The notes below the pieces were generated by a model, which did not search any database, was not told the DNA's origin, and saw only the letters and a program-made list of their open reading frames with translations. Below are positions 4,201 to 49,077 of a stretch of DNA of 59,349 nt, piece after piece (position 1 is the stretch's first letter; every line of letters starts with the position of its first letter). Origin of the DNA: an uncultured Chlorobiaceae bacterium (lineage in GTDB: Bacteria; Bacteroidota; Chlorobiia; Chlorobiales; Chlorobiaceae); contig CAIVSG010000072.1 in assembly GCA_903908555.1 (NCBI GenBank), positions 1 through 59,349 of the forward strand, written 5' to 3'. The position numbers and the translations under genes were made by a program.

Positions 4201-4293
4201 AGTATATTTGTACATTGGTGTCCAGCAACCCGGCTGTTATGGCCCCATGTCAGCTTGTTATTTCTCTTCGTCCTTTAAAGTAAGTTGCCCCTC

Positions 4294-7200: not shown

Positions 7201-8103
7201 CGCATTGATGCCGAAGAGACAAAAGTGGAAATAACAGAAACACCCCTCAATGAGCTTTTGCAAGACATCCATGCCTTTTTCAAGCCTGACGCTCTCTCTA
7301 AAGGGTTGCGCTTAACCCTTACCACAGGGCTTTCAGACGGCGAAAGCCTCATGAACACCGATAGTGGCAAGTTGACCCAGATTTTGACAAACCTTGTCAA
7401 TAATGCTCTGAAATTTACTATAAAGGGTGGTGTTGATTTCGGGTATAGAAGAAAGGAAAACATGCTTGAGTTTTATGTTATTGACTCAGGTATTGGTATT
7501 CCCGTTGAGATGCGGGATAAGGTTTTTGACCGCTTTCAGCAGGTTGACAACTCCTTGACCAGAGGTTACGAAGGCGCAGGACTTGGCTTGAGTATTACGA
7601 ATTCTTTCGTTAAACTCCTTGGCGGAAAGATTCATGTTGAGTCAACCGATGGTGCCGGCACTACCTTTTCATTCACCCTCCCCTATAACCCTACGCAACC
7701 CGAACACTCAGCACTCAGCACTCAACCCTCAGCACTTTCTTTCTGCATTCTTATAGTCGAAGATGATGCGATGAGCACCCTCTTGCTTAAAAAGAACTTT
7801 AAAGACGAAAACTTTTGCATGCACTGTGCCGAAAACGGATGGGAAGCCGTAGAGATGATTCGGCATCACCCTGAGATCAATCTGGTGCTGATGGACATCA
7901 AGATGCCCGTCATGAATGGCTTTGAGGCAACAAGGCTGATCAAACAGCAGCGTCCAGACCTGCCGGTTATTGCCCAGTCAGCATTTACCTCAAAAGAGGA
8001 CAGGGATAAAGCCAGAGAAGCAGGCTGCGATGACTTCATTACCAAACCAATCAGCAAAAGCGAACTGCTCGAAAAGATGCACGCTCTGCTGCACTGGGAA
8101 TAA
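4294..8103 (+). CDS. Hybrid sensor histidine kinase, PAS/GAF/HisKA/HATPase/REC
   Basis: A cytosolic 1269-residue hybrid kinase; no membrane helix or signal peptide is visible. In order: a Ser/Thr/Ala/Gln-rich N-terminus, a coiled coil (HELEVQQIELELQQEELLL, ~45-65), PAS (~75-200), GAF (~205-385), four further PAS/PAC units (~395-890), HisKA with the phospho-acceptor in SHEIRTPMNG (His918), HATPase with DSGIGIP and GAGLGLSI, and a C-terminal receiver with LVLMDIKMPVMNG (phospho-acceptor Asp1201). The ATG at 4294 is preferred to a TTG at 4285. Two linkers (4384-4407 and 7704-7737) are encoded by CTCAGCA heptads. No partner response regulator is adjacent. The signal sensed cannot be told from sequence. 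Confidence 0.93.
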   Translation: MAKKHTNINLAASSELRSLAQERLAQQHLTTQHSAPSTTSSLGTSSSPDEMLRVVHELEVQQIELELQQEELLLSRQKLEETLAMYTDLYDFAPLGYLTLAQDSTILEANLTAATMLGVERSRLRGMHLTSFVIPEDHRVIDVLLEKVFIGKIVGYDEVMLLSNNSLEATVPKIFSGRTVRLDAAISQTTPACRIILSDITRQKQTEDVLRRQSRALLATDHCNQALIHSTDELDLLHRVCNIMVEVGGYRMAWVGYAEHDEKKSISVLAEVGFVADYKQHHKLSWADVPQGRGPVGVTIRTAQSTAVNYIPTDPIFTLWRDDALRHGFASLLTLPLKAGNKAFGVLTIYSAQPDAFDTDETRLLGALADNLAYGISTLRSRKKKEEAENALRRSERNFRSITEQMTDEVFLIDSIGTLTYVSPVVEKLFGYLPHEVIGHSFADYILEQDIPQALEVFQSTLLYKTSNQMFEVRLKRKDNSLFDAEIHLQYYQDQDISGMIGLIRDISDRKLAESKAKEMSARFKATIDAAKIGTWDWNVQTGEAILNNRWFEIVGYSREELAPVSIQTWVDLTHPDDFRESMGIAEKLFNGELDYYEHECRMKHKNGTWVWVLDRGSLISRTADGKPLRVLGTHIDINDRKQAEAALRESERLFRSTIEQISEVVFVNNSIGEVSYVSPIVEKITGYKADELIGHTFFEYVAEEDLSRAIAVFTDAMKRQLTNQVVEFKYRKKDGSLFDAEIHSQYFNDNGSCGVIGLLRDISERKLFENQLVKLSAAVEQSPAVVVITDSHGTIEYVNPRFSKLTGYSIEEATGKNPQILQSGLTPKSVYDDLWKTILSGNIWRGEWQNKKKNGELFWESVVMSAILNSEGIITNFVAVKEDITAQKKMLQDLIAAKEKAEESDRLKSAFLANISHEIRTPMNGILGFSELLKEPHLSGDEMAEFIDLIQKSGHRMLNLINDLIDISRIDAEETKVEITETPLNELLQDIHAFFKPDALSKGLRLTLTTGLSDGESLMNTDSGKLTQILTNLVNNALKFTIKGGVDFGYRRKENMLEFYVIDSGIGIPVEMRDKVFDRFQQVDNSLTRGYEGAGLGLSITNSFVKLLGGKIHVESTDGAGTTFSFTLPYNPTQPEHSALSTQPSALSFCILIVEDDAMSTLLLKKNFKDENFCMHCAENGWEAVEMIRHHPEINLVLMDIKMPVMNGFEATRLIKQQRPDLPVIAQSAFTSKEDRDKAREAGCDDFITKPISKSELLEKMHALLHWE
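4384..4407. repeat. In-frame CTCAGCA heptads in sensor kinase N-terminus
   Basis: Three imperfect heptads (CTCAGCA / CTCAGCA / CCCAGCA) encode the low-complexity stretch QHSAPSTTSS ahead of the coiled coil. Since 7 is not a multiple of 3, gain or loss of one unit would shift the frame. Confidence 0.75.
7704..7737. repeat. In-frame CTCAGCA heptads between kinase and receiver domains
   Basis: Three CTCAGCA heptads plus one CCTCAGCA-like copy encode the linker HSALSTQPSALS between HATPase and REC. A change by one unit would separate the receiver domain from the kinase by frameshift. Confidence 0.75.
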
Positions 8104-8274: not shown

Positions 8275-8335
8275 CTGATTTATGGTATGCAATATGCCGT
8301 ATACACGGGATTTGTGTAGATCAATTTATTGCTAA
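8275..8335 (+). promoter_or_regulatory. Dispersed regulatory element, copy b
   Basis: CTGATTTATGGTATGCAATA is followed by TGCCGTATACACGGGATTT and an AATTTATTG tail. The core GGTAT-N5-ATGCC is an imperfect palindrome (8284-8298). Near-identical copies occur at 13613 and 22349 and looser ones at 45321 and 44699. It lies about 150 nt before the cysteine-rich leader peptide. Role (promoter, operator or start of a structured RNA) is unknown. Confidence 0.65.
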
Positions 8336-8432: not shown

Positions 8433-8516
8433 ATGCTCTCAAATTATATATCAGATGGATCCTGTTGTCGTCATTTAAAGACAAGAATAGACAAAAAAGT
8501 TTTTGCGCTGCAATAG
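8433..8516 (+). CDS. Candidate leader peptide A with Cys-Cys (27 aa)
   Basis: A 27-codon ORF whose N-terminal part is MLSNYISDGSCCRHLKTR, with two adjacent TGT codons at 8463-8468 and a TAG stop at 8514. The stop abuts a hairpin (8517-8536), and an intrinsic terminator (8546-8579) follows before the flavoprotein gene. The layout matches leaders B, C and D, though this one has CC rather than CCCC. A competing short ORF starting at GTG 8422 has a better-placed GGAGG (8407-8411), so which frame is translated is open. Confidence 0.5.
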   Translation: MLSNYISDGSCCRHLKTRIDKKVFALQ

Positions 8517-8536
8517 TACTTGATTATATCGACAAG
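8517..8536 (+). promoter_or_regulatory. Hairpin 1 after leader A
   Basis: ACTTG (8517-8521) pairs with CAAGT (8532-8536) directly after the leader stop codon. The same ACTTGA/TCAAGT-like stem occurs at the same place after leaders B and C. Confidence 0.6.
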
Positions 8537-8545
8537 TTTATAAAG

Positions 8546-8579
8546 AAGCCGATTCTTGCTGTCAAAGGATCGGCTTTTT
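8546..8579 (+). terminator. Intrinsic terminator/attenuator A
   Basis: AAGCCGATTCTT pairs with AAGGATCGGCTT (one G-U), followed by a short T run, 50 nt before the structural gene. The 5' arm segment ATTCTTG (8552-8558) can instead pair perfectly with CAAGAAT (8482-8488) inside the leader ORF, a candidate antiterminator. Confidence 0.8.
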
Positions 8580-8627
8580 GTGTGTATGAATATTCAAACC
8601 AACATGTAAATACAAGGAGAAGAGGAA

Positions 8628-13612: not shown

Positions 13613-13674
13613 CTGATTTATGGTATGCAATATGCCGTTTAAATGGGATTTATAAAGTTTAATTTATTGTCGAT
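13613..13674 (+). promoter_or_regulatory. Dispersed regulatory element, copy c
   Basis: CTGATTTATGGTATGCAATA then TGCCGTTTAAATGGGATTT, nearly identical to copy b. The imperfect palindrome GGTATGCAATATGCC is at 13622-13636. It lies 268 nt before the ATG of leader B, in an AT-rich 570-bp gap. Confidence 0.65.
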
Positions 13675-13889: not shown

Positions 13890-13964
13890 ATGTCCAATAT
13901 TCAGTGTTGTTGTTGTTTAGAAAAATATTTTTATTTAAGAATTTTGCGATATTATAATACTTGA
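13890..13964 (+). CDS. Cysteine leader peptide B (24 aa, CCCC)
   Basis: ATG to TGA, 24 codons beginning MSNIQCCCCLEKYFYLR. Four TGT codons in a row occupy 13905-13916. Its pattern M-x-N-[IL]-x-CCCC-L-[EK] is shared with leader C. The stop overlaps a hairpin (13959-13978) and a terminator (13988-14023) follows 53 nt before the radical SAM gene. There is no strong Shine-Dalgarno sequence (CAAGTAAC precedes ATG). A role as a ribosome-stalling cysteine sensor is inferred. Confidence 0.7.
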   Translation: MSNIQCCCCLEKYFYLRILRYYNT

Positions 13965-13978
13965 AGAGATTTTTCGAG
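13959..13978 (+). promoter_or_regulatory. Hairpin 1 after leader B
   Basis: ACTTGAA pairs with TTCGAGT (one G-U) and contains the leader TGA stop, so a terminating ribosome would melt it. Equivalent hairpins follow leaders A and C. Confidence 0.6.
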
Positions 13979-13987
13979 TTTATAATT

Positions 13988-14023
13988 AAGCTAATTCTTA
14001 TTCTCAGAGAATTGGCTTTTTTG
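13988..14023 (+). terminator. Intrinsic terminator/attenuator B
   Basis: AGCTAATTCT pairs with AGAATTGGCT followed by six T. AATTCTTA in its 5' arm and loop (13993-14000) is perfectly complementary over 8 nt to TAAGAATT (13936-13943) within the leader ORF, 19 nt after the last Cys codon, giving a mutually exclusive structure. Confidence 0.8.
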
Positions 14024-14076
14024 TTTTTAATAATTAAGTCAAAGAAGTAATTAAAAAGATTATAGGAGATCAAGCT

Positions 14077-22348: not shown

Positions 22349-22410
22349 CTATTTATGGTACACAATATGCCATGTAAAAGGGATTTGCAAATCGCTATTT
22401 ATTGTTGATT
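22349..22410 (+). promoter_or_regulatory. Dispersed regulatory element, copy d
   Basis: CCTATTTATGGTACACAATA then TGCCATGTAAAAGGGATTTG and CTATTTATTGTTGATTTTAA; core GGTACACAATATGCC at 22357-22371. It lies 271 nt upstream of leader C, the same distance as copy c from leader B. The 554-bp gap has no larger gene. Confidence 0.65.
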
Positions 22411-22627: not shown

Positions 22628-22693
22628 ATGCTAAATCTCTCTTGTTGTTGTTGCTTAAAATATCATTATAGGAAAGTGTTTGTGCGAATGTAA
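22628..22693 (+). CDS. Cysteine leader peptide C (21 aa, CCCC)
   Basis: ATG to TAA, 21 codons beginning MLNLSCCCCLKYHYRK; the Cys codons are TGT TGT TGT TGC at 22643-22654. It is clearly related to leader B in its first 11 residues. The stop lies 2 nt before a perfect hairpin and 30 nt before a terminator that precedes the porin/ABC importer unit. No strong ribosome-binding site is seen. Confidence 0.7.
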   Translation: MLNLSCCCCLKYHYRKVFVRM

Positions 22694-22695
22694 TG

Positions 22696-22713
22696 CTTGA
22701 TTGGTTTATCAAG
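22696..22713 (+). promoter_or_regulatory. Hairpin 1 after leader C
   Basis: CTTGAT-TGGTTT-ATCAAG, a perfect 6-bp stem right after the leader stop codon, matching the hairpins after leaders A and B. Confidence 0.65.
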
Positions 22714-22722
22714 TAGAATAAG

Positions 22723-22758
22723 AAGCCGATTCTTTCTGTTAAAGATTCGGCTTTTTTT
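22723..22758 (+). terminator. Intrinsic terminator/attenuator C
   Basis: AGCCGATTCTTT pairs with AAAGATTCGGCT (one mismatch) followed by seven T, nearly the same sequence as attenuator A. CTTTCT (22732-22737) in the 5' arm can pair with GGAAAG (22671-22676) in the leader ORF, a weaker antiterminator than in A and B. Confidence 0.85.
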
Positions 22759-22814
22759 ATATCTGCAAATAATCAAATTAGAATATCTATTAATTATAAA
22801 TATCAGGAATGAGG

Positions 22815-24194
22815 ATGAGTAAAATAAAGTTTACAGTTCTTCTGCTTGGAAGTTTGTTGATTGGCAATGCGAATCTGCAGGCTGCTGCAAAGACGTCAAA
22901 ACATGTTTCTACGGAACGGAAAACCGAAGCAGAAGTAGTTGAGAAGGAGCCTGCGCCGGCGATCGAGACAACTGACGATGACAAGCTTGTAACACAAAGG
23001 GAGCTCCAGGGGTTAAATTCAGAAGTTGCACTTCTTAGAGATCAATTGACCCGGCAACTTGATCGGAATATCGCCAATAGTGCAAGGTCACTGACAATTA
23101 GCGGGATTCTCCAGAATCGTTATACAGGAGTGACATCCTCAAATGTGCCGCAAGCGTCTAATGGTTTTTCATTTGGGAGTGCCGCGGTTGTTTCATTTAG
23201 TGGCGCATTAAAGAAAGACTACGACGAAGGTCGTAATCTGACCTATGTGTTTTCGCTTAATGGTGCTATAGCACCATATAACGTGCAGCCCAATGATGTT
23301 TATTTGCAGTACTCGATTTTTCAGTCTCTTGACCCAGAAAAATCCACGTTGAATTTCGTGTTCGGACAACAGAAAAAACCCTTTGGACTTGAGCCTCAGG
23401 TAGGTGAAGACAAAACACCGGCCGCAAATACTGCAATTTTTGCTGGAGGAAGCGGTCTTAATCTTGCCGCGCGTGATTTTGGTATTCAGTTTAAAGGAGA
23501 TTTTTTCCCCGCCTATGACGCAGGATACAATTATCGAGTTCCGTTCATAGAATATGCTGTTGGGTTGTATAACGGATCGGGTGCAAATGCGACGGATACA
23601 AACAAAAGCAAGGATGTTGTCGCCAGGATAGCTCTCAATGCTCCTGTAGACTACAGTTCTGATTTCCGTGGTTTAACGTTCGGAAGTTCTATTTATACCG
23701 GTAAAAAGGATCTTGCTTTGAATAATGGAGGGACTCTTATTACTGGCGGTGGTGGTAGCGCTTCAAGAGTTCGCTATGGTCAGGATATCTCCTATGTAAG
23801 CTCTCCAATTGGATTTACGGCGGAATATGCTGTTGGAAGAGATGAGTCAGCTCTTTCAGGAACAACTATTGCTAATGCAGTAAAGTCGACAACGGAAAGT
23901 CGGGGTTATACGCTGACACTGTTCTATCAGTGGGGTGAACAGTTTTTGAAGCTGGCTCGCAATGAGGATCGTTTGGACGATTGGTGGCCAAAAACCTACC
24001 AGCCGTTTATTCGAATTGATCATTGGGATCCTAATACAGCTATTTCCGGAAACGAGACATCTATAGTTACGTATGGATTTAACTTGTTCTTTGCGCAAAC
24101 GACGAAACTGCAATTGAACTATAACGTGAGCAATATAAGAGCAACCAATACAAAGGCGAATCAATTCATTGCGCAATTCCAATTTGGATTTTAA
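22815..24194 (+). CDS. Outer-membrane porin (phosphate-selective porin O/P-like)
   Basis: 459 residues from ATG 22815, favoured because AGGA lies 7 nt before it; ATG 22809 is also possible. A signal peptide (KIKFTVLLLGSLLIGNANLQAAA) is followed by a charged region and a short coiled coil (LQGLNSEVALLRDQLTRQLD, typical of trimeric porins), then a beta-barrel ending in an aromatic residue (FIAQFQFGF). FGQQKKPFGLEPQ resembles the O/P porin family. First gene after attenuator C, so it likely admits the substrate of the ABC importers downstream. Confidence 0.82.
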   Translation: MSKIKFTVLLLGSLLIGNANLQAAAKTSKHVSTERKTEAEVVEKEPAPAIETTDDDKLVTQRELQGLNSEVALLRDQLTRQLDRNIANSARSLTISGILQNRYTGVTSSNVPQASNGFSFGSAAVVSFSGALKKDYDEGRNLTYVFSLNGAIAPYNVQPNDVYLQYSIFQSLDPEKSTLNFVFGQQKKPFGLEPQVGEDKTPAANTAIFAGGSGLNLAARDFGIQFKGDFFPAYDAGYNYRVPFIEYAVGLYNGSGANATDTNKSKDVVARIALNAPVDYSSDFRGLTFGSSIYTGKKDLALNNGGTLITGGGGSASRVRYGQDISYVSSPIGFTAEYAVGRDESALSGTTIANAVKSTTESRGYTLTLFYQWGEQFLKLARNEDRLDDWWPKTYQPFIRIDHWDPNTAISGNETSIVTYGFNLFFAQTTKLQLNYNVSNIRATNTKANQFIAQFQFGF

Positions 24195-24225
24195 CTGATT
24201 TAAAAAATTGAAAGGAGATTATAAG

Positions 24226-25257
24226 ATGAAAAAGTGGATAAAATATTTCCCCCTTGCACTGTTATTTTCTATTGGAGTTGTTGCTCAAGCGGCAGACAAG
24301 CCAGCAGAAATCAGGTTTTCAATACCGAGTACTTCTTTTCAGACCACAAACGCATTTTATCCTGTAGCCGAGTTGGTTATTGATCATAAACTATTGGAGA
24401 AGGAGTTTGCTGCTGATGGAATTAAAATTAAGTACTCAATTCTAAAAGGGGCCGGCCCTGCTGTGAATGAATCGTTAGCTGCTGGACTTGGAGACTTTGG
24501 TAATTATGGTGATTTGCCGGTGATACTTGGTAAAGCTGGTGGATTGCCGACCAAATTGGTTTTAGGGCATGAGCAAGGTGGTAACACCTTTATTCTTGCC
24601 CGGGCTGAATTGCATATCAACTCATTAAAAGACCTGAAGGGTAAAAAGATTGCAATCCAGAAAGGGACTGCAGGTGAAACAAACTTTTACAGGTTTATCG
24701 AAGCAAATGGCTTGAATAGTAAAGACTTTAGGATCGTTAATTTGAGTGGTGCAGATGGTCAGGCAGCGCTTGCAGCGGGAAGTATTGATGCTCTTTCAAG
24801 TGGCTATGATCGCCCTCTAGTTGACCAGGGTTTGGCGACTGTTGTGGCTGATACGCGAAAATTTCCTAATAGCATAAAATCAAGAGGTGCTTTGGTTGTT
24901 ACCGATGCTTTTGCCCGGAAGTACCCTGATATCACTAAAAGGGTTGTGAAGGTTTTTATCGAAGCAGCTCATTTTGTATCCCAGGATAAAAATCTTCCAG
25001 AATTATTACGTGTTACCACCAAGGCTGGTTACAAATATAAATACCAGAGAGAAGAATTAGTAAATACTTCATTGAAGGATAAATATAACCCTCTTTTGGA
25101 TCAGGATCTTGTTAATCATTATAAGGCAATAGTAGATTTTTCATTGCAGCATAAACTCATTAGATCGAAATTCGATGTTGACCAATTTGTTGACAAGAGT
25201 TACTCAGAAGCAGCCTTAAAAGAACTTGGCTTGCAGCACTATTGGGATAAGCATTAA
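24226..25257 (+). CDS. ABC importer substrate-binding protein (SsuA/TauA/NMT1 type), SBP1
   Basis: 343 residues from ATG 24226 with AAAGGAGA 7 nt upstream. A signal peptide ends at VVAQAADKP. The NMT1/SsuA fold is seen in GLGDFGNYGDLPVILGKA, LKDLKGKKIAIQKGTAGE and ALAAGSIDALSSGYD. Proteins of this family bind alkanesulfonates, taurine, nitrate, or pyrimidine precursors. The sulfonate reading is favoured by the cysteine-type leader upstream, but the ligand is not proved. Only 13 nt separate the porin stop from the preceding TTG. Confidence 0.85.
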   Translation: MKKWIKYFPLALLFSIGVVAQAADKPAEIRFSIPSTSFQTTNAFYPVAELVIDHKLLEKEFAADGIKIKYSILKGAGPAVNESLAAGLGDFGNYGDLPVILGKAGGLPTKLVLGHEQGGNTFILARAELHINSLKDLKGKKIAIQKGTAGETNFYRFIEANGLNSKDFRIVNLSGADGQAALAAGSIDALSSGYDRPLVDQGLATVVADTRKFPNSIKSRGALVVTDAFARKYPDITKRVVKVFIEAAHFVSQDKNLPELLRVTTKAGYKYKYQREELVNTSLKDKYNPLLDQDLVNHYKAIVDFSLQHKLIRSKFDVDQFVDKSYSEAALKELGLQHYWDKH

Positions 25258-25263
25258 TTTTAT

Positions 25264-25299
25264 AAAAAGGGAGAAGATATTCAAGGCTTCTCCCTTTTT
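25264..25299 (+). terminator. Strong hairpin between SBP1 and permease genes
   Basis: AAAAAGGGAGAAG and CTTCTCCCTTTTT form a perfect 13-bp stem ending in a T run, 6 nt after the SBP1 stop and 16 nt before the permease ATG. It likely gives partial termination or mRNA protection so that the binding protein is made in excess over the membrane subunits. Confidence 0.85.
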
Positions 25300-25315
25300 A
25301 AATATATCAGATACG

Positions 25316-26110
25316 ATGATTAAGAAAATATTTAAGCGATTAGGGTTAAAAGATAAGCTTCTTGGGCTTATAGTTCCGTTTCTGTTGCTGATTATTTGGC
25401 AGGGAGCAGTAACAAAACATTTATTTTCGGAACTACTGGTTGTCCCGCCTTTAACTTTGTTGAATACCCTTATTGAATTGGCCAAATCAGGGGATCTGTC
25501 TTCTAATATTTTAGCAAGCCTTAATAGAGTCTTGATTGGTTTTTTGATTGGCGCATCAGGCGGATTTATTCTTGGGATAGCTATGGGATTGTCACCAATT
25601 ATAAATAGAACTTTGTCTCCATTAGTCAAGGCACTGCAACAGGTGCCTGAGTTTGCTTGGATGCCCGTTATAATATTGCTTTTTGGAATTGATGAGTTTG
25701 CTAAAAATATTTTCATAGCCATTGGTGCCTTTTATCCAATGCTTTTTAATACATATCTAGGTGTTAGCGGTGTTCCGGATAAATATCATGAACTTGCGCA
25801 GGTGTATCAATACAAAAGCCATCGATATCTTGCAAAAGTTATACTACCGAGTGCATTACCATCAATAATTACCGGTATTCGTCTGAGTCTTGGTTTATCC
25901 TGGGTATTTGTAGTCGGAGCTGAGTTTTTTGGTACAGAGGCAGGAGTAGGTTTTATGATGATTTCTGGTCGACAGCTCTTCCAGATAGATGTAGTTATGG
26001 CTGGACTGGTTGTTATTGGGACAATAGGATTTTTGTTGAATTATGTTTTGCAATTGCTTGAAAAAAAACTTTCGGGTGGTCGTGTTGCCTTTGATGGAGG
26101 AATTGCTTGA
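25316..26110 (+). CDS. ABC importer permease (SsuC/TauC-like) 1
   Basis: 264 residues from ATG 25316; a longer frame from 25226 would run through the terminator and is rejected. About six hydrophobic helices, beginning LLGLIVPFLLLIIWQGA. The cytoplasmic coupling segment ELAQVYQYKSHRYLAKVILPSALPSI is the EAA loop that docks the ATPase. Its stop overlaps the start of the next permease (TGATG), so the two are coupled and probably form a heterodimeric channel. Confidence 0.9.
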   Translation: MIKKIFKRLGLKDKLLGLIVPFLLLIIWQGAVTKHLFSELLVVPPLTLLNTLIELAKSGDLSSNILASLNRVLIGFLIGASGGFILGIAMGLSPIINRTLSPLVKALQQVPEFAWMPVIILLFGIDEFAKNIFIAIGAFYPMLFNTYLGVSGVPDKYHELAQVYQYKSHRYLAKVILPSALPSIITGIRLSLGLSWVFVVGAEFFGTEAGVGFMMISGRQLFQIDVVMAGLVVIGTIGFLLNYVLQLLEKKLSGGRVAFDGGIA

Positions 26111-26889
26111 TGAATATCAGTAAAAGAACAAAATCAGTACTGGGCAGTATTTTATTACCCGTAGTTCTGATTATTCTATGGCAATATATCTTTTCTGCAG
26201 GTTATATCGCTTCTGCAATTCTTCCCTCACCCCACCAAGTCATTAAAACATTTATTATTCATTTTACTGAAAATGAGTATTCCTTTCATATTATCTCAAG
26301 TTTAAAGCGTGTGTTGAGTGGTTTTTTTATAGGTATTGTAAGTGGTTTTCTTTTCGGATTATTCATCGGATTATCTCGAACAGCAGAAAAGATATTTTCA
26401 CCCTCATTTAATGCAGTTCGGCAAATATCAATAATAGGATGGATTCCACTTATTGTCATGTGGTTCGGAGTAAACGAATTTCCTCGAATCATCATTATCG
26501 CCGCCGCTGCCTTTTATCCTATCGCACTTAATACTTTTGCTGGAGTGCGAAATGTCCCCAGAGAGTACGTTGAACTTGCCTCTGTATATGGTTATAACAG
26601 ATTGAAACTGATTACTCGAATTATTCTGCCATCAGCCTTGCCTTCAATTGCAACAGGTATTACCCTCGCACTTGGAATGTCATGGGCCATGTTAATGGCT
26701 GCAGAACTTTTCATACCAACAAATATTGGTATCGGTACACGAATTCAAATAGGGCGAGAAAAATTCAATATGGCATTGATTCTGGTAGGTATTATCACTG
26801 TAGGTTCACTCGGGTTTGCAATGACGTCGATAGTTGAAATCATAGCTCATGCAGCAGATCGAGGACGCATTCTTCGAAAAGAAATTTAA
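26110..26889 (+). CDS. ABC importer permease (SsuC/TauC-like) 2
   Basis: 259 residues, with GGAGGAATT upstream and start codon overlapping the stop of permease 1. Hydrophobic helices begin VLGSILLPVVLIILWQYIF. EAA loop: ELASVYGYNRLKLITRIILPSALPSIATG. Two different permeases with one ATPase imply a heterodimeric channel, which is less common for SsuC-type systems than a homodimer. Confidence 0.9.
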   Translation: MNISKRTKSVLGSILLPVVLIILWQYIFSAGYIASAILPSPHQVIKTFIIHFTENEYSFHIISSLKRVLSGFFIGIVSGFLFGLFIGLSRTAEKIFSPSFNAVRQISIIGWIPLIVMWFGVNEFPRIIIIAAAAFYPIALNTFAGVRNVPREYVELASVYGYNRLKLITRIILPSALPSIATGITLALGMSWAMLMAAELFIPTNIGIGTRIQIGREKFNMALILVGIITVGSLGFAMTSIVEIIAHAADRGRILRKEI

Positions 26890-26907
26890 ACACACAAGGA
26901 TAAGAAC

Positions 26908-27687
26908 ATGTCAGTTGAGAAAGGTACACTTGAGATCAGGAATCTTAGCAAAAGTTATGTTGTTGACAACAATCAATTGCAGATACTTAAAAATATCAAT
27001 ATAACCTTCCCTTCAGGCGCCTTTGTATCTATTCTCGGTTCCAGTGGTTGCGGAAAAACAACCTTGCTGCGCATTATGCTCGGTCTTGAAAAGCAATATG
27101 AAGGTGATGCCCTGATTGATGGTGAGAAGATAAAAGGGCCAGGATCGAACAGAGGAATAGTTTTCCAGGATCACCGTCTCCTTCCATGGCTTACGGTTGG
27201 GGAGAATGTTGCTTTTGGTCTTGATAAGCTTAACCGTAAAGAGAAGAAACTTCTTGTTGACGATCATTTAAAGCTTGTTGGTCTCAGTGGATTTGAGAAC
27301 GCTTATCCTTCAAACCTTTCAGGAGGAATGGCTCAGCGCGTAGCTATTGCAAGAGCTTTGGCGAACAAACCTGAAATACTTCTTCTCGATGAACCTCTCG
27401 GAGCATTGGATGCTTTGACGAGAATGTATATGCAAAAAGAACTCGAGAGATTATGGGAGTTTGAAAAGATTACCATGATCATGGTTACACATGATGTTGA
27501 AGAAGCAATTTATTTGAGTGACAAAATAGTCATTATGTCTTCTCGTCCAGGGGTCATCAAAAAAGTAATAGACATTCCATCAGCGAGGCCTAGGGATCGT
27601 GCAAGCTCTGAGTTTATGCATATAAAAGCCGAGATATTGAAAGAGTTCCATCTTGGTACCGAATACCCATTTGCTTATGCAATTTGA
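26908..27687 (+). CDS. ABC importer ATPase (SsuB/TauB-like) 1
   Basis: 259 residues. Walker A GSSGCGKTT (near residue 48), Q-loop VFQDHRLLPWLTV, signature LSGGMAQRVA, Walker B ILLLDEPLGALDA and switch His in MVTHDVEEA. AAGGA precedes the ATG. It energises the two permeases upstream. A 100-bp gap follows before SBP2. Confidence 0.93.
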   Translation: MSVEKGTLEIRNLSKSYVVDNNQLQILKNINITFPSGAFVSILGSSGCGKTTLLRIMLGLEKQYEGDALIDGEKIKGPGSNRGIVFQDHRLLPWLTVGENVAFGLDKLNRKEKKLLVDDHLKLVGLSGFENAYPSNLSGGMAQRVAIARALANKPEILLLDEPLGALDALTRMYMQKELERLWEFEKITMIMVTHDVEEAIYLSDKIVIMSSRPGVIKKVIDIPSARPRDRASSEFMHIKAEILKEFHLGTEYPFAYAI

Positions 27688-27787
27688 TTCTTTCATAAGG
27701 AGTTGGGCCTGTTAAGAAGATTCATTCGATATAAACATCAACAGTCCAATTCAGTGATAAATCTGATGAGAATATTTAGGAAAAACC

Positions 27788-28837
27788 ATGAATAACAAAG
27801 TAAACGTGATCATCGTAGCAGCTATTGCCATTGTGGTTACAGGTATTGGATGGTTTGCTGTCCAGAAGTCCACGTCCAGGACAGAACAGGTGGTAATTCG
27901 AGAACTTCAATCAACAGCTCCTGCACAATGGGAACTCGCTAAAAAACTCGCAGGGAGGGATATTCTTGCTGAAGAGGGTGTGAGAATAGAACTGATCAAT
28001 AGTATTCAGACTGGAGGAGGTACCGTGATACTCCAGGCTCTCCTTGCCAATAACATTGATGTTGGGGGTTCCGCCTGGCCCGCATGGATCAACATTATTG
28101 CTCGTGGAGGCAAGATCAAAGCGCTTCTTGGTACGATGGTATCAACAAAAGACAACGAGTGCAGCCAGCAGGGTCTGCTTGTTCTCAACGAAAGCAATAT
28201 TCACGAGATCAAGGATTTGGTTGGTAAAAGGATTGCGGTTAATGTGCTAGGTGCAGAAGCGGATTACGTTATTCGATTTTTTCTTAAAAAGCACGGACTT
28301 TCAATTTCTCAGGTACAATTAGTTGTGGTTCCAGGATCACAACAGGAAAAGATGCTGCGCAGCCGGCAGGTAGATGCAATAGCATTTGGAACCATAGCCG
28401 GTGTGGATTTTGACATGGCTGTAGCCAACGGTGGAGTGCGACAGATACCGGGCACTACAAACTATGAAACCAAGGGCGAAACCGTATTGGCCGGCATCGG
28501 TTTCAGGACTGATTTTATTGAAAAGCATCCTGATGCCGTGAGAAGATACCTTCGCGCGTATGATGGTGCCCGCCGTATAATTTACAATGAGTTCCAGAAA
28601 GATCCTGAACGGGTAAGAAAGGCCTACGCTGAAATAAGTGTTGAAAAAGGCAGCAATCCTCGCTTGGCAAAATATTTCCGTGCAACCCTTTGGAATCCTG
28701 ATTATCCGTTGATTGCAGACAATGATATTCAGTGGTGGTTTGATCGGTTTATTGAGGACGGTTTATTGAAACAGGGGCAGATAAAACCATCTGATATCTA
28801 TACGAATGAGTTCAATCCATTGTACAAGAAAAAGTGA
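27788..28837 (+). CDS. Membrane-anchored ABC substrate-binding protein, SBP2
   Basis: 349 residues of the NMT1/SsuA-like fold, with AGGA 8 nt before the ATG. The N-terminal helix (VIIVAAIAIVVTGIGWFAV) has no lipobox or clear cleavage site, so it looks like an uncleaved anchor facing the periplasm. Landmarks: LQALLANNIDVGGSAWPAW, GKRIAVNVLGAEADYVIR, LRSRQVDAIAFG and the C-terminal FNPLYKKK. First of four close paralogues (others at 30682, 31734, 32806). Its pocket loop lacks the SESAW of the others. Confidence 0.82.
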   Translation: MNNKVNVIIVAAIAIVVTGIGWFAVQKSTSRTEQVVIRELQSTAPAQWELAKKLAGRDILAEEGVRIELINSIQTGGGTVILQALLANNIDVGGSAWPAWINIIARGGKIKALLGTMVSTKDNECSQQGLLVLNESNIHEIKDLVGKRIAVNVLGAEADYVIRFFLKKHGLSISQVQLVVVPGSQQEKMLRSRQVDAIAFGTIAGVDFDMAVANGGVRQIPGTTNYETKGETVLAGIGFRTDFIEKHPDAVRRYLRAYDGARRIIYNEFQKDPERVRKAYAEISVEKGSNPRLAKYFRATLWNPDYPLIADNDIQWWFDRFIEDGLLKQGQIKPSDIYTNEFNPLYKKK

Positions 28838-28918
28838 ACTTCCCGCTGGTTTACGTCCTGGTGGATTGACAATACATGATGCGTCTCTTGAATATTTCAA
28901 TATTGAAAAAGTAAGGTT

Positions 28919-29755
28919 ATGGACATAATTGTAGCAAAGGACGTGCGAAAAAAATTCAAACTCAAGCACGGCCAGCAGGTGAAGAACAATGGAATTATCT
29001 CTAACGAGATTGATGCCTTGGGAGGTTTTGATCTGAATATTAAAAAAGGTGAGTTCCTTGTATTAGTCGGGCCGAGTGGTAGTGGGAAATCTGTATTTCT
29101 TGATATCGTAGGCGGATTAAGTGCTCCTACGAGTGGTGTCGTCTACCTTGACAACAAACCGGTAGATGCTCCTAGTGAAAAGACCGGTTACGTCTTTCAG
29201 CAGTATGCATTGTTCCCTTGGAGAACTGCTCTGTCGAATATTGAATTCGGGCTTGAGTCTCGAGGAGTCGTTAAAGAGGAACGGATAAAAATTGCCCGTG
29301 AACTGTTATCCCTTTTCGGACTCTCTGATTTTGAAGACCGCTATCCTTACCAGCTTTCCGGAGGTATGCAGCAAAGGGTCGCTATAGCTCGTGCTCTTGC
29401 TACTAAGCCGGAAGTATTATTGATGGACGAGCCTTTTGCTGCTCTTGATGCACAGACCAGGGAGATTCTTCAGAACGAACTTATCCGGATATGGGAGGGA
29501 ACCGATACCACGGTGATTTTCGTAACTCATAGTATTGATGAGGCGGTATTTCTCGCAGACAGGGTAGCTGTTGTTACTGCTCGCCCAGGAAAGATCAAAG
29601 AAATAATTGAGATAGATCTGCCAAGGCCAAGAAATGGAGATATCAGATCAAGCAGTGAATTTGCAGCTAACCGACATAAGGTGTGGGGAGCGCTCAAGGC
29701 AGAAGTCAACAAAGCTCAACAGGAATGGAAGCTCGCGCCAGGGTTTACCGATTAA
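28919..29755 (+). CDS. ABC importer ATPase (SsuB/TauB-like) 2
   Basis: 278 residues. Walker A GPSGSGKSV, Q-loop VFQQYALFPWRTA, signature LSGGMQQRVA, Walker B VLLMDEPFAALDA, switch FVTHSIDEA. An N-terminal extension of about 35 residues (KKFKLKHGQQVKNNG) is unlike ATPase 1. The upstream 81 bp contain a TTTCAATATTGAAA palindrome. Confidence 0.92.
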   Translation: MDIIVAKDVRKKFKLKHGQQVKNNGIISNEIDALGGFDLNIKKGEFLVLVGPSGSGKSVFLDIVGGLSAPTSGVVYLDNKPVDAPSEKTGYVFQQYALFPWRTALSNIEFGLESRGVVKEERIKIARELLSLFGLSDFEDRYPYQLSGGMQQRVAIARALATKPEVLLMDEPFAALDAQTREILQNELIRIWEGTDTTVIFVTHSIDEAVFLADRVAVVTARPGKIKEIIEIDLPRPRNGDIRSSSEFAANRHKVWGALKAEVNKAQQEWKLAPGFTD

Positions 29756-29793
29756 CTGAATTAAAACAATGCAAAGAATAAAGGAGATTTCTT

Positions 29794-30657
29794 ATGTCAG
29801 AAGAACTTACGGTACCTTCAGAGATCAGATTAAAACCCCGATCTATTGATATCAGTTTGTATACAAGAAAGTTAAAGCCTTTTATTGTTGGTCTGTACCA
29901 TTGGTCGCACGGTATTCCATTGGTTCTTGTGTTTTTTGCAGTATGGGAGGCCCTTCCTCGTCTGGGGATCATCAATCCACTTTTTCTGCCGACGTTTTCT
30001 TCAACTCTCCAAACGTTGATTGAACTGACTCTCTCAGGGCAATTATTGTTGCATGCATTGGTCAGTCTGCAACGAGCTGCCGCAGGGTTTGGTCTGGCAC
30101 TTGTGATTGCAGTGCCTTTTGGCTTTTTAATGGGTCATTACACTAAGTTTGAAAGATATACAGATCTACTCGTGCAAGGTTTGCGCAATGTATCGACCTT
30201 TGCCCTCCTGCCGATCTTTCTCCTCCTATTGGGCCTTGGGGAGTCATCGAAGATCGCCATCATATTCTATGCAGCAAGCTGGCAGATTCTCATGAACACT
30301 ATCAGCGGAGTTAAAAGTGTTGATCCCATTTATATAAAGGCGGCAAGGTCGATGGGGGTTTCTGATTTTGAATTGTTCACAAAAGTTATTCTTCCTGCAA
30401 GCATTCCTTCAATAGTTATTGGTGCCCGTTTAGGGGCGAAGATTGCTCTGATGGTGGTTATTGCAGCAGAGATGATCGGTGCCAAATCCGGACTTGGATT
30501 TTTTATCCAGAATGCAGAATTCAATTTCTTGGTACCTGAAATGTATGCCGGAATCTTGGCTCTGGCAATTGTTGGTTTGGTTGTGAATTATCTGTTGGTA
30601 TGGGTTGAAAAGAAAACAACCTCATGGAAGCGTGATATAAGCGGAGCAATTCAGTGA
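29794..30657 (+). CDS. ABC importer permease (SsuC/TauC-like) 3
   Basis: 287 residues, AAAGGAGATT before the ATG. Six-helix core with IPLVLVFFAVWEALPRLGI at the start and the EAA loop IKAARSMGVSDFELFTKVILPASIPSIV. As the only permease of the second importer it would act as a homodimer with ATPase 2. It lies between SBP2 and SBP3, so one channel may be fed by SBP2-SBP5. Confidence 0.9.
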   Translation: MSEELTVPSEIRLKPRSIDISLYTRKLKPFIVGLYHWSHGIPLVLVFFAVWEALPRLGIINPLFLPTFSSTLQTLIELTLSGQLLLHALVSLQRAAAGFGLALVIAVPFGFLMGHYTKFERYTDLLVQGLRNVSTFALLPIFLLLLGLGESSKIAIIFYAASWQILMNTISGVKSVDPIYIKAARSMGVSDFELFTKVILPASIPSIVIGARLGAKIALMVVIAAEMIGAKSGLGFFIQNAEFNFLVPEMYAGILALAIVGLVVNYLLVWVEKKTTSWKRDISGAIQ

Positions 30658-30681
30658 TAAATATGGTTTGAATACAAAAAA

Positions 30682-31737
30682 ATGAATAACAAGGCAAAGG
30701 CACTCTCTATTGTTCTCATTGCTATCGCTATTGCTATCGCTATTGCTGGGGCCGGATGGTTTGCTTATAAAAAGAGTGCGCCGAAAAATGAAAACGTTGT
30801 AATACGAGAGCTTGAATCTACTCTACCAACACAGTGGGAACTTGCTAAAAAACTTACGGGTCGTGACATCCTTCTTGAAGAGGGTGTGAAACTTGAGTTG
30901 ATTCGTAGTGTTCAGAGTAGTGGAGGTACCACAGCACTTCAGGCTCTTTTGGCTAATAATATCGATGTTACCTCTGAGTCAGCATGGCCTGCATGGATAA
31001 ACGTTATCGCACGTGGGGGTAAGATTAAAGCCCTTCTTCCTTTTAGGGTATCAACGAAAGATAATGATAGCAACCGTCATGGCCTATTAGTTTTGAATGA
31101 GAGCAGTATTCATTCAATCAAAGACCTTACCGGTAAAAGGATCGCAGTTAATGTTCTTGGTGCGGAAGCGGATTATGTTATTCGTTTGTACCTCAAAAAG
31201 AATGGACTCTCAATTTCGCAGGTACAGTTGGTTGTTGTTCCTGTTTCACAGCAGGAACAGATGCTGCGCAGCCGGCAGGTGGACGCCGCAAGCAGCGGGG
31301 GGGCTGAGTTTGAGTTAGCTGTTGCCAACGGTGGTGTTCGTCAGATACCAGGCACCAGAAACTATGAAACCAAAGGTGAAGCTGTAGCGTCTGGCATTGG
31401 TTTCAGGAATGATTTTATCGAGAAACATCCTGATGCCGTCCGAAGATACATTCGGGCTTATGACCTGTCCCGGCGCATAATCTACAGTAAGTTCCAGAAA
31501 GATCCTGAACGGGTAAGAAAGGCTTATGCCGTCATCAGTGTCGAAAAAGGCAGTAATCCTCGCTTAGCCAGATATTATCGCCCAAACCTTTGGACTCCGG
31601 ATTTTCCATTTATCGTTGACAAGGATATCCAGTGGTGGATTGATCGATTTATAGAGGATGGATTATTAAAACCGGGACAGATAAAGCCCTCTGATATTTA
31701 TACCAATGAATTCAATCCTCTTTATAAGAAAAAATGA
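30682..31737 (+). CDS. Membrane-anchored ABC substrate-binding protein, SBP3
   Basis: 351 residues, paralogue of SBP2. The anchor helix is lengthened by an in-frame GCTATC/GCTATT repeat coding AIAIAIAIAIAGAG. Pocket segments: NNIDVTSESAWPAW, STKDNDSNRHG and VDAASSGGAEFELAV, all different from the other copies. The last 4 bp overlap SBP4. The ribosome-binding site is poor. Confidence 0.82.
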   Translation: MNNKAKALSIVLIAIAIAIAIAGAGWFAYKKSAPKNENVVIRELESTLPTQWELAKKLTGRDILLEEGVKLELIRSVQSSGGTTALQALLANNIDVTSESAWPAWINVIARGGKIKALLPFRVSTKDNDSNRHGLLVLNESSIHSIKDLTGKRIAVNVLGAEADYVIRLYLKKNGLSISQVQLVVVPVSQQEQMLRSRQVDAASSGGAEFELAVANGGVRQIPGTRNYETKGEAVASGIGFRNDFIEKHPDAVRRYIRAYDLSRRIIYSKFQKDPERVRKAYAVISVEKGSNPRLARYYRPNLWTPDFPFIVDKDIQWWIDRFIEDGLLKPGQIKPSDIYTNEFNPLYKKK

Positions 31738-32777
31738 ATAGTAAAATAAAGATAAGCTTAGTTGTTGTCATTGGTTTGGTAATTGCATCCATCGGATGGT
31801 TTGCTTTCAAGAATACCAATTCCAACCCTGAAAACGTTGTAATACGAGAGCTTGAGTCTACTGCCCCGACACAGTGGGATCTTGCAAAAAAACTGACAGG
31901 TAGGGATCTACTGCTAGAAGAAGGTGTAAAACTTGAGCATGTTCTTACAGTCCAGAGTAGTGGAGGAACAACATCCCTTCAGGCGCTACTGGCTAATAAC
32001 ATTGATGTTTGCACAGAGTCAGCCTGGCCCCCGTATATAAATATTATTGCCCGCGGAGGAAAGATCAAGGCGCTCCTTGGTGTTACGGTATCAACAAAGG
32101 ACAATGAATGCAGCCGGCAGGGGCTGTTAGTTCTTGATGAGAGTAATATTTATACGATCAAGGATCTCCCCGGTAAAAGGATTGCAGTTAATGTTCTGGG
32201 TGCGGAATCGGATTATGTCATTCGGCTCTATCTCAAAAAAAATGGACTTTCAATCTCCCAAGTAGAACTGGTTGCTGTGCCACCCGAAAAACAGGAACAG
32301 ATGCTGCGTAGCAGGCAGGTGGATGCCATCTCCGTTACCAGAGTTCATTATGAAATGACTCTTGCAAACGGAGGAGTGCGTCAAATACCAGGTACAACAA
32401 ACTTTGAAACGAAGGGCGAAGCAGTATCAGGAGCACTCAGTTTCAGAAATGATTTTATTGAGAGACATCCTGAAGCCGTCCGAAAATATCTACGTGCATT
32501 TGATGGAGCCCGCCGCATAGTTTACAAAGAATTCCAGAAAGATCCTGAACGGGTAAGAAAGGCCTATGCAGATATCAGTGCCGAAAAAGGAAGTAATCCT
32601 AGCTTGGCAAAGTATTTTCAGGCTACCCTTTGGAATCCTGATTTTCCATTTATCGCTGACAAGGATATCCAGTGGTGGATTGATCGATATATAGAGAGTG
32701 GATTATTGAAACCCGGCCAGTTAAAACCGTCAGATATCTATACAAATGAATTCAACCCTCTTTATAAGAAAAAGTGA
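31734..32777 (+). CDS. Membrane-anchored ABC substrate-binding protein, SBP4
   Basis: 347 residues. The start overlaps the stop of SBP3 by 4 bp, so translation is coupled. Pocket segments: NNIDVCTESAWPPYI, STKDNECSRQG and VDAISVTRVHYEMTL. The framework (GKRIAVNVLGAESDYVIRLY, FQKDPERVRKAY, FNPLYKKK) is nearly unchanged from its paralogues. Confidence 0.82.
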   Translation: MNSKIKISLVVVIGLVIASIGWFAFKNTNSNPENVVIRELESTAPTQWDLAKKLTGRDLLLEEGVKLEHVLTVQSSGGTTSLQALLANNIDVCTESAWPPYINIIARGGKIKALLGVTVSTKDNECSRQGLLVLDESNIYTIKDLPGKRIAVNVLGAESDYVIRLYLKKNGLSISQVELVAVPPEKQEQMLRSRQVDAISVTRVHYEMTLANGGVRQIPGTTNFETKGEAVSGALSFRNDFIERHPEAVRKYLRAFDGARRIVYKEFQKDPERVRKAYADISAEKGSNPSLAKYFQATLWNPDFPFIADKDIQWWIDRYIESGLLKPGQLKPSDIYTNEFNPLYKKK

Positions 32778-32805
32778 ATAACCGGCATTACACGATTAAA
32801 AATAT

Positions 32806-33849
32806 ATGAATCGTACAACAAAGATAAGCTTGGCTGTTGTCATTGGTTTAGTGACTGCATCTATTGGATGGTTTGCTTTCAAGAAGACCACTCCGCAGAA
32901 CGATAACGTTGTAATTCGAGAGCTTGAGTCAACTGCACCGACACAGTGGGAACTTGCAAAAAAACTGACAGGCAGGGATATTCTTGAAGAAGAAAGTGTA
33001 AAACTAGAGCTGATTCGTAGTGTCCAGAGCAGCGGAGGTACAACATCACTTCAGGCGCTTTTGGCCAATAATATTGATGTTTGTTCTGAATCAGCATGGC
33101 CTGCATGGATAAATGTTATCGCCCGTGGCGGCAAAATTAAGGCGCTCCTTGATATTTGTGTAACAACAAAAGACAATGAGGGTGGGCAGCAGGGAATGCT
33201 AGTTCTTGATGATAGCAGTATTCATTCAATCAAGGACCTGCCCGGTAAAAGGATTGCTGTTAATGTGCTCGGTGCTGAATCGGATTATGTCATCCGCCAT
33301 TTTCTCAAAAAAAATGGACTTTCAATTTCACAGGTGGAGTTGGTTGTTGTGCCACTTGAACAGCAGGAGCAGATGCTTCGCAGTCATCAGGTTGATGCTG
33401 CTTGCATCGGCAGAGTTGCTTTTGACATGACTCTCGCTAGCGGTGGCGTAAGGCAAATACCCGGCACCACGAACTATGAAACCAAGGGCGAATCAGTAAT
33501 GTCCGGTTTAGGTTTCAGGAATGATTTCATCGAGAAACATCCTGATGCCGTTCGAAGATACATTAGGGCTTATGACATATCTCGCCGCATAATTTACAGT
33601 GAATTCCAGAAAGATCCCCAACGGGTACGAAAGGCGTATGCCGATATCAGTGTCGAAAAAGGCAGTAATCCAGTCGTGGCAAAATATTTCCGGGCTACCC
33701 TTTGGAATCCTGATTTTCCATTTATCGTTGACAAGGATATTCAGTGGTGGATCAATCGATTTGTTGATGACGGATTGCTGAAACTTGGCCAGTTAAAACC
33801 TTCAGATATCTATACAAATGAGTTCAATCCTTTGTATAAGAAAAAATAA
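32806..33849 (+). CDS. Membrane-anchored ABC substrate-binding protein, SBP5
   Basis: 347 residues, most like SBP4. Pocket segments: NNIDVCSESAWPAW, TTKDNEGGQQG and VDAACIGRVAFDMTL. Last gene of the importer unit. The 266-bp gap that follows (33850-34115) has only a weak GCTCAATAGAGC hairpin and no clear gene or strong terminator. Confidence 0.82.
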   Translation: MNRTTKISLAVVIGLVTASIGWFAFKKTTPQNDNVVIRELESTAPTQWELAKKLTGRDILEEESVKLELIRSVQSSGGTTSLQALLANNIDVCSESAWPAWINVIARGGKIKALLDICVTTKDNEGGQQGMLVLDDSSIHSIKDLPGKRIAVNVLGAESDYVIRHFLKKNGLSISQVELVVVPLEQQEQMLRSHQVDAACIGRVAFDMTLASGGVRQIPGTTNYETKGESVMSGLGFRNDFIEKHPDAVRRYIRAYDISRRIIYSEFQKDPQRVRKAYADISVEKGSNPVVAKYFRATLWNPDFPFIVDKDIQWWINRFVDDGLLKLGQLKPSDIYTNEFNPLYKKK

Positions 33850-43550: not shown

Positions 43551-44567
43551 TCAGGGAGTAGTAATCTGATCGAAAACCCCACCGTCACTGAAGTGTATTT
43601 TCTGTGCACTGCGCCAGTTCCCGAATACTTCCTTAAGAGTAAACAGCTTGATGTTCGGGAAGTTTGCTGCATATTTTTTCAGCGCAGCCGCATTTCTTGG
43701 CCGATAGGAGTTTTTTGCGATAATGTCCTGTGCCTCCGGAGTATAAAGGAAGTTCAGATAGGCTTCAGCGGCCTTACGGGTGCCATGTTTATCAACGTTT
43801 TTATCGACAATAGCCACAGGCGGCTCAGCCAGAATGCTGACAGGGGGAAGAACGATTTCATATTGATCCGATCCGAACTCTTTAAGAATCAGGTGAGCCT
43901 CATTTTCCCATGCCAGAAGAACATCGCCAATACCCCTTTGCGTAAAGGTAAGGGTTGAACCCCTGGCTCCCGTATCCAGTACCGGGACATTTTTATATAA
44001 AGCCTTGACAAATTTTTTAGCCTGATCAGTTGAGTTTGTCTGTTTTTGTTTGAAGCCCCATGCCGCCAGGTAGACCCAGCGGGCACCTCCTCCGGTTTTC
44101 GGGTTTGGTGTTATAACCGATACACCCGGCTTTACAACGTCATCCCAGCTCCTGATCTGTTTCGGATTTCCCTTGCGCACAACAAAAACGATTGTAGAGG
44201 TATATGGAGTGCTGTTATTGGGCAATCTTTTCTGCCAGTTTGGATCGAGAAGTTTGCTGTCGGCAATGGCATCAATGTCATTGGCAAGAGCAAGAGTGAC
44301 CACATCGGCTTCAAGTCCGTCAATAATGGCACGTGCCTGTTTACCGGAACCGCCGTGTGACTGGTTGATTGTCACAGTCTGGCCCGTTTTCTGTAACCAG
44401 TACTTTGCAAAAGCAGCATTTTCACTCTGATAGAGTTCCCTCGTAGGGTCATACGATACATTCAGCAGAGTAACATTTCCTGCGGCCTCTGCCAGAGTGA
44501 CCGGAAGTCCGGAGGTGAGAAAAAGCACACCGAACAGCGTAAATTTTTTTATCCAGTCATGACTCAC
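43551..44567 (-). CDS. sbp: Sulfate/thiosulfate ABC transporter substrate-binding protein
   Basis: 338 residues. A signal peptide ends near [10 protein letters not shown]. Family marks: [13 protein letters not shown] at the mature N-terminus, [28 protein letters not shown] and [21 protein letters not shown]. Binds sulfate or thiosulfate in the periplasm for a CysTWA-type importer. No permease or ATPase genes are adjacent here, so it is an orphan binding protein or its partners lie elsewhere. Its upstream region holds TACC-N8-GGTA like that of the cysteine leaders. Confidence 0.92.
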
Positions 44568-44651
44568 AGCTTTCTCCTTCTCTTATTGTTTAACGACCAA
44601 CTGGTAATAAAGCTCAATATTGGTAAGGCTTCCAAGCGTATACCATAAAAA

Positions 44652-44667
44652 TACCATAAACAAGGTA
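44652..44667. promoter_or_regulatory. TACC-N8-GGTA palindrome, sbp upstream region
   Basis: TACC-ATAAACAA-GGTA, 85 bp upstream of the minus-strand sbp start and shared with the divergent OsmC gene. Same spacing as the sites before leaders B, C and D. Confidence 0.6.
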
Positions 44668-44698
44668 TGGTGTTCACTGGCGCGCCCAGGCTACTCTC

Positions 44699-48908: not shown

Positions 48909-49013
48909 ATGAATGCTCAAGACTTATTCAATAAAGGACTTTTCAGCACGTCATCATGCTGTTGTTGTCTCTTTGTGGATGCTGATATATCGGATCCCGG
49001 ATTAATGACATAG
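48909..49013 (+). CDS. Cysteine leader peptide D (34 aa, CCCC)
   Basis: ATG to TAG, 34 codons beginning MNAQDLFNKGLFSTSSCCCC and continuing LFVDADISD. The Cys codons are TGC TGT TGT TGT at 48957-48968. It is longer and otherwise unlike leaders B and C, but has the same order: Cys run, stop codon, hairpin, terminator, structural gene. Confidence 0.65.
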   Translation: MNAQDLFNKGLFSTSSCCCCLFVDADISDPGLMT

Positions 49014-49015
49014 AT

Positions 49016-49031
49016 GCCCTGTTGATTGGGG
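49016..49031 (+). promoter_or_regulatory. Hairpin 1 after leader D
   Basis: GCCC-TGTTGATT-GGGC immediately after the leader stop codon, in the same position as the ACTTGA/TCAAGT hairpins after leaders A-C but with a different sequence. Confidence 0.55.
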
Positions 49032-49042
49032 CGGAATATTTC

Positions 49043-49077
49043 AAAGCCGGCTTTCAATATTAGAGCCGGCTTTTTTT
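49043..49077 (+). terminator. Intrinsic terminator/attenuator D
   Basis: AAAGCCGGCT pairs with AGCCGGCTTT followed by a T run, 65 bp upstream of the porin ATG. No convincing antiterminator pairing was found here. Confidence 0.85.

Follow-up and report, generated by a model that had tools for sequence, protein, structure and literature searches.

A probable family of cysteine-responsive transcription attenuators upstream of sulfur-related operons in Chlorobiaceae

Leader C, its neighbours and the upstream box

The stretch of DNA analysed (hereafter the window) is a contig of 59,349 nucleotides from a 2.8 Mb genome that is 81% complete; the genome was searched both by pattern and by model, and the best named relatives of the genes in the neighbourhood are found in Chlorobiaceae genomes; the genus is probably Chlorobium. 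On the forward strand, positions 22628-22693 hold a short reading frame of 21 codons (MLNLSCCCCLKYHYRKVFVRM, here leader C) that begins with ATG at 22628, ends with TAA at 22691-22693 and contains, as codons 6-9, a run of cysteine codons (TGTTGTTGTTGC, 22643-22654). A hairpin, P1 (CTTGAT-TGGTTT-ATCAAG, 22696-22713), begins 2 nt past the stop codon and is followed on the same strand by a Rho-independent terminator at 22722-22758 (GAAGCCGATTCTTTCTGTTAAAGATTCGGCTTTTTTT; GAAGCCGATTCTTTC...GATTCGGCTTTTTTT), which leaves 50-56 nt to the start of the porin gene at 22809 or, more likely, 22815. Each of the parts named in the preliminary description of this locus – an MLNLSCCCC leader, a hairpin 2 nt past its stop and a strong terminator before the porin gene – is thus present and can be placed by coordinate. 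The leader C RNA folds better than all of 200 shuffled versions (z -3.3). Comparison of the whole window with Rfam at gathering scores returned two tRNAs only, and no known RNA family at the leaders. Four consecutive TGY codons are found four times in the window against an expectation of 0.18: at leader C (22643), at leaders B (13905) and D (48957), both described below, and at 49690, within the gene behind leader D. Plain matches to a TGY run in the genome lie mostly within genes or lack a terminator; one such candidate, L002, was rejected because it lies in a gene.

The porin gene (22809-24194, forward strand) is assigned to the Porin_O_P family: 10 of 13 homologues match the Pfam model, the window protein itself being sub-threshold. 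A structure model predicts 16 strands after a signal peptide and a coiled coil, its confidence is low (mean pLDDT 52.8), and the porin call therefore rests on Pfam. The importer genes follow on the same strand (24208-33849) and comprise an SsuA-like binding protein (24208), permeases (25226 and 26107), an ATPase (26908), an SBP (27788), a second ATPase (28919), a further permease (29794) and three more SBPs (30682-33849). Against TIGR01728 the binding protein at 24208 scores 155.2 bits, below the curated cut-off of 163.5, and is accordingly described as SsuA-related. Four of the SsuA-like binding proteins (27788-28837 and 30682-33849) are paralogues within the one operon, an apparent duplication. 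The porin and ABC importers reported earlier behind leader C are thus borne out, and by family membership the importers appear to be SsuABC-like; family and regulon together suggest that the imported compound may be a sulfonate or another organosulfur compound.

Three further leaders lie on the forward strand of the window. Leader A (MLSNYISDGSCCRHLKTRIDKKVFALQ, 8433-8583; hairpin 8518-8537, terminator 8545-8579) stands before a PNPOx-like gene at 8628 and has two Cys codons only. It is the best match in its own genome to the covariance model described below, leaders A and C ranking highest and being followed by the leader of an RND operon on another contig and then by leader B. Next to leader A, 4285-8103 encodes a large hybrid sensor histidine kinase that contains several PAS domains. 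Leader B (MSNIQCCCCLEKYFYLRILRYYNT, 13890-14025, with the frame at 13890-13964; hairpin 13960-13978, terminator 13988-14022) precedes the radical SAM/double-cubane operon. Leader D (MNAQDLFNKGLFSTSSCCCCLFVDADISDPGLMT, 48909-49079), also with hairpin and terminator, is a weaker model match (E 4e-4) and precedes gene 49142, which encodes a second putative outer-membrane protein. The near-identity that had been claimed for leaders B and C does not hold: MLNLSCCCCLKYHYRKVFVRM and MSNIQCCCCLEKYFYLRILRYYNT have CCCCL and little else in common. What the two truly have in common is their architecture and an upstream DNA box.

This box (TTTATGGTACACAATATGCC), a candidate promoter or operator, lies at 22352-22371 on the forward strand before leader C, and is found again before leader A (8279-8298) and leader B (13617-13636). 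At up to three mismatches the pattern TTTATGGTAYRCAATATGCC occurs at three places in the 2.8 Mb genome, all of them before the poly-Cys leaders A, B and C, while the reversed pattern, searched as a control in the same genome, has no occurrence. Over a wider set, TTATGGTA is present in 42 of 76 regions upstream of leaders against 1.2 expected. The boxes lie 70-300 nt 5' of the Cys run, which makes a leaderless mRNA unlikely. As both the box and membership in the leader family are common to B and C, the two would share two layers of control, and leaders A, B and C probably all have in common a promoter or operator plus an attenuator. Co-control of the redox operon (B) and the importer operon (C), suggested in the preliminary description, gains support from a box unique to A, B and C. 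Synteny points the same way: among relatives, L114 and L115 carry both leaders in the same order. Other relatives have double-cubane genes without a detected leader of their own.

In the form TTTATGGTATGCAATATGCC (GTTTAAACGGGATTT), the box at these three window positions is conserved before most leader operons; relatives have with it a GGTAT-N5-ATGCC element and a palindrome, CCGTTTAAACGG. The sulfate-binding protein gene at 43551-44567 of the window lacks a leader but has a related direct repeat (TTTATGGTATTTTTATGGTATA) at 44600-44680 (minus strand). This repeat is also present upstream of leader D and, in relative L211, upstream of a sulfate-binding protein gene that does carry a leader. Elsewhere in the window, 38099-42976 encodes a protein of 1625 residues that is weakly similar to DNA phosphorothioation restriction proteins and to type I restriction R subunits.

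Conservation of the leaders and of their reading frame

Porin loci were collected from 26 relatives of the same family, whose porins are 43-73% identical to the window protein; together with the window these make 27 loci. Their upstream regions were scanned for terminators and for short frames of any kind that stop ahead of a terminator, with no requirement for cysteine. This Cys-blind scan gave poly-Cys leaders at 20 loci, and the model described below added four at which the contig extends only a short way upstream, giving 24 of 27. At one locus (L187, 3779-4095) a tandem pair of complete poly-Cys attenuators precedes a single porin gene.

A covariance model was built from an alignment of 17 leaders. 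In this alignment nine pairs of P1 and the terminator show changes on both sides, a number reached by none of 500 shuffles, and the covariation score collapses once the pairing partners are slid. Model matches occur in 40 of 86 genomes of the family at E<=0.01; a genome has as many as ten of them, which often cluster in islands. A class-wide search at E<=0.001 confined the matches to the genus of the window and to one genome of a sister genus in the same family: it gave none in 12 genomes that represent seven further genera of the order, and none in any genus outside Chlorobiaceae. More distantly related double-cubane genes are present in Rhodobacter, Rhodovulum, Paenibacillus and Sporomusa, and no leaders were found at these either. 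The leader seen in the window is thus one member of a genus-wide family.

The position of the stop codon ties the frame to the RNA structure. Among the 72 model matches that have a Cys run, the frame containing the cysteines stops exactly 2 nt before P1 in 37 and no more than 6 nt before it in 43; in the other two frames a stop falls within 6 nt in three and two leaders, and there is no peak at 2 nt. Cysteine is encoded by both TGT (165) and TGC (32), so that the residue, rather than the DNA, is kept and synonymous change is tolerated. It is the commonest residue of the leader peptides and nearly the sole former of long runs, which partly reflects selection, the peptides having been picked for CC. 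In about one quarter of the leaders the frame closes shortly behind the Cys codons and 26-47 nt short of P1, and these early-stopping leaders must need a different version of the switch. A Shine-Dalgarno core is present at 6 of 68 leader starts, as compared to 14 of 23 genes in the window and 24 of 61 first genes behind leaders; given this rarity, translation of the leaders is assumed.

If the leader encoded a small functional cysteine-rich protein, one would have a ready reason for a real reading frame constrained for Cys. However, the peptides have no other conserved residue and vary in length between about 12 and 40 codons, and the frame tracks RNA pairing in its 3' part. The AAAGnTTTTTGC stretch, which is kept between the Cys codons and the stop, is in the L090-L096 group found past an early stop codon, and is therefore conserved as RNA. 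We regard a functional small protein as extremely unlikely.

Antitermination and the position of the ribosome

Opposite the terminator stands an antiterminator built on the post-stop hairpin, an element that goes beyond the preliminary description. It is an extended hairpin with P1 at its tip, below which helices of the type GACA..AAG..UUG pair with CGA..CUU..UGUC of the terminator (5' arm and loop). In leader C the 5' strand is predicted at 22671-22685 (forward strand): GGAAAG (22671-22676) would pair with CUUUCU (22732-22737), UUG (22680-22682) with CGA (22727-22729), and GC (22684-22685) with GC (22725-22726), with P1 at the apex. The partners of this strand are thus the 5' arm and the loop side of the terminator.

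RNAalifold, run on a shortened alignment, yielded no consensus antiterminator, because the register of this element varies among leaders. For this reason the antiterminator was examined by ribosome-masked folding against shuffles and by counts of named pairs. Each transcript was folded as far as the terminator loop, with a ribosome placed at either the Cys run or the stop codon and covering 15 nt downstream; a first set of 28 leaders was followed by one of 50 leaders in which the stop adjoins P1. In the 50, the mean probability that the terminator 5' arm is paired upstream is 0.64 when the ribosome sits on the Cys codons and 0.24 when it has reached the stop, the latter value being low partly because less RNA is left for pairing. 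When the intervening RNA is shuffled the probability is 0.45+-0.03, with a maximum of 0.52. Pairing of the arm is higher in the stall than in the stop state in 48 of the 50. In an independent alignment of 48 leaders, the named pairs of antiterminator and P1 are formed in 82.7% of cells, compared to 27-47% when slid, a figure that reflects conservation more than compensatory change.

These data suggest the following mechanism. With ample Cys-tRNA the ribosome would pass the Cys codons and reach the stop at 22691, where it would cover the 5' strand of the antiterminator (22671-22685) and the first arm of P1; the terminator (22722-22758) would then fold and the porin-importer operon would be off. 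If cysteine is short, the ribosome would wait on codons 6-9 and leave both the antiterminator strand and P1 free. P1 and the strand preceding it could then fold back onto the 5' arm of the terminator to form the extended antiterminator hairpin, and polymerase would read into the porin and importer genes.

In most leaders the terminator remains the favoured fold at equilibrium even when the ribosome is stalled, and antitermination would therefore have to be kinetic. A terminator that is stable in almost every state computed, and weak initiation signals at the leaders, would be expected if the terminator were constitutive or otherwise controlled (for example by Rho or by a protein antiterminator) and the short frame incidental. 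Such an incidental frame, however, does not account for in-frame Cys codons and a fixed distance from stop to hairpin across many operons with differing downstream genes, nor for antiterminator pairing well above that of shuffles, and we consider it very unlikely. Rather, it is highly probable that leader C is a cysteine-responsive, ribosome-mediated transcription attenuator, and that the same switch and the shared box run other sulfur-scavenging operons; having both in common, these operons would respond together.

Genes behind the leaders and comparison with known attenuators

The first gene was examined behind 79 leader matches, a set in which loci were partly chosen via porin or double-cubane genes and which, with a few duplicates, is not an unbiased census. 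The porin-SsuABC importer operon (19) and a radical SAM protein of the 14077 family (18) are the most frequent. They are followed by the double-cubane activase, the RND efflux adaptor and a NifH-like protein with two nitrogenase-component-1 proteins after it (8 each), and by a PNPOx-like protein (4), an ABC ATPase (3), the DUF4395-metY operon (3), an SDR (2) and an arylsulfotransferase-like protein (2); single cases include a sulfate-binding protein. Behind a CCCC(C) leader, the DUF4395-like operon has the order metY, response-regulator-like gene, cysK (L207, L209, L205 and L048), the cysK scoring 384 bits against TIGR01139 (cut-off 351), and is possibly the ancestral member. In L205 a sulfate-binding protein gene stands in place of cysK.

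Nitrogenase-like HDK operons lie behind poly-Cys leaders in L190 (11335-14952), L174 (16247-19892), L184 (9278-12927) and L178 (492-4140). Their H protein scores 406 bits to PDB 9FMG as compared to 280 for the next Fe protein, and their D protein 152 bits to 9fmg and 9d9u as compared to 77 for the next. 9FMG is the methylthio-alkane reductase MarDK2H2, an enzyme that scavenges organic sulfur; on these scores the HDK genes behind the leaders of relatives are closer to MarHDK than to nitrogenase. Mar was not found in the window's own genome, an absence that is weak evidence because that genome is 81% complete. Genes for cysteine and methionine synthesis, for uptake of the sulfate or sulfonate type and, probably, for C-S cleavage share the switch, and this would make cysteine the obvious signal.

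A different signal would be sensed if the poly-Cys nascent peptide itself bound a metal, a thiol oxidant or sulfane sulfur and stalled the ribosome, with no part for missing Cys-tRNA. Adjacent cysteines can bind metals, RND efflux adaptor genes lie behind some leaders, and the double-cubane and nitrogenase-like enzymes are metal-rich. Yet the peptide is conserved in its Cys run only, and that run is itself variable both in position and in form (CC to CCCCC, or CYC). Moreover, metY, cysK and the sulfate-binding protein belong to the regulon; sensing by the peptide is therefore unlikely. Attenuation through cysteine codons, as first proposed, is favoured by the comparative data, both the leader at 24 of 27 porin loci and the presence of metY, cysK and sulfate-binding protein genes in the apparent regulon. 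Together the leaders very probably form a large family of RNA switches that sense cysteine shortage in green sulfur bacteria and induce genes for sulfur scavenging.

The leaders match attenuators of the trp/his type in several respects: a short upstream ORF carries a run of control codons, an intrinsic terminator precedes the first gene, an antiterminator competes (as computed) with the terminator according to ribosome position, and the control codons fit the pathway (metY-cysK, sulfate-binding protein, SsuABC importers). They differ from the classical systems in that the Chlorobiaceae switch would be cysteine-specific, its antiterminator is an extended hairpin capped by the leader's own post-stop stem-loop, and it serves scavenging and uptake operons rather than just one biosynthetic operon.

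In mycobacteria, short polycysteine ORFs in front of sulfur operons are described as cysteine-responsive attenuators of operon expression (Canestrari et al. 2020, as cited in PMC9094748 and PMC13236596); like the present leaders, they carry consecutive Cys codons in a small frame ahead of the operon. The mycobacterial frames are reported to be leaderless, and the mechanism is called translation attenuation (PMC13236596). A comparative study of 2005 found the mycobacterial cases without conserved terminator hairpins and proposed Rho (PMC1262725). The Chlorobiaceae leaders, from another phylum, by contrast combine an intrinsic terminator with an antiterminator and with a post-stop hairpin that covaries; the presence of the terminator sets them apart from a leaderless poly-Cys frame without a conserved one. 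The 2005 study also predicted cysteine leaders in other Actinobacteria, listing cys operons of Mycobacterium and Propionibacterium acnes and cbs of Bifidobacterium (PMC1262725). These likewise place Cys-run peptides before cysteine genes, but the run lies near the stop and 'other attenuator elements are missing' (PMC1262725). An analysis of premature terminators noted an attenuator element at a sulfonate operon, for which the available part of the paper describes no Cys leader; the sole Chlorobia attenuator mentioned in that part is a hisS T-box (PMC2965389). The searched literature, which covers few subscription papers, contains no cysteine leader in Chlorobia and, for amino-acid attenuation in the phylum, a T-box only and no leader peptide. 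The switch family is previously undescribed in the searchable literature.

The Chlorobiaceae switch would thus be a cysteine-specific transcription attenuator with complete classical anatomy, serving a regulon of up to about ten operons. As it flags likely sulfur-starvation genes by sequence alone, it provides a handle on unknown genes: the radical SAM proteins, double-cubane reductases, PNPOx-like proteins and importers found behind it probably have functions in the scavenging of organosulfur. It also predicts that anaerobic phototrophs known for a sulfide-based life still run short of cysteine and then resort to nitrogenase-like chemistry, which is costly. A bolder proposal, which we put forward tentatively and with some doubt, is that the level of Cys-tRNA acts as the master signal for a sulfur-starvation regulon that spans the genus and includes ATP-driven reductases of two kinds, nitrogenase-like Mar and 2-hydroxyacyl-CoA-dehydratase-like double-cubane enzymes; the double-cubane operon of leader B would then encode a new system for cleaving a C-S bond in an organosulfur compound imported via the porin and importers of leader C.

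Two further observations concern other operons behind the leaders. An arylsulfotransferase-like protein is encoded behind a poly-Cys leader in L184 (4142-5584) and L183 (2427-3869). The leaders of RND efflux operons (L192, L193, L198, L202 and L191) often end in Cys codons (FLCCC or CYCYL before the stop), and in the window's own genome (L191) the RND leader is reduced to CYR before the stop.
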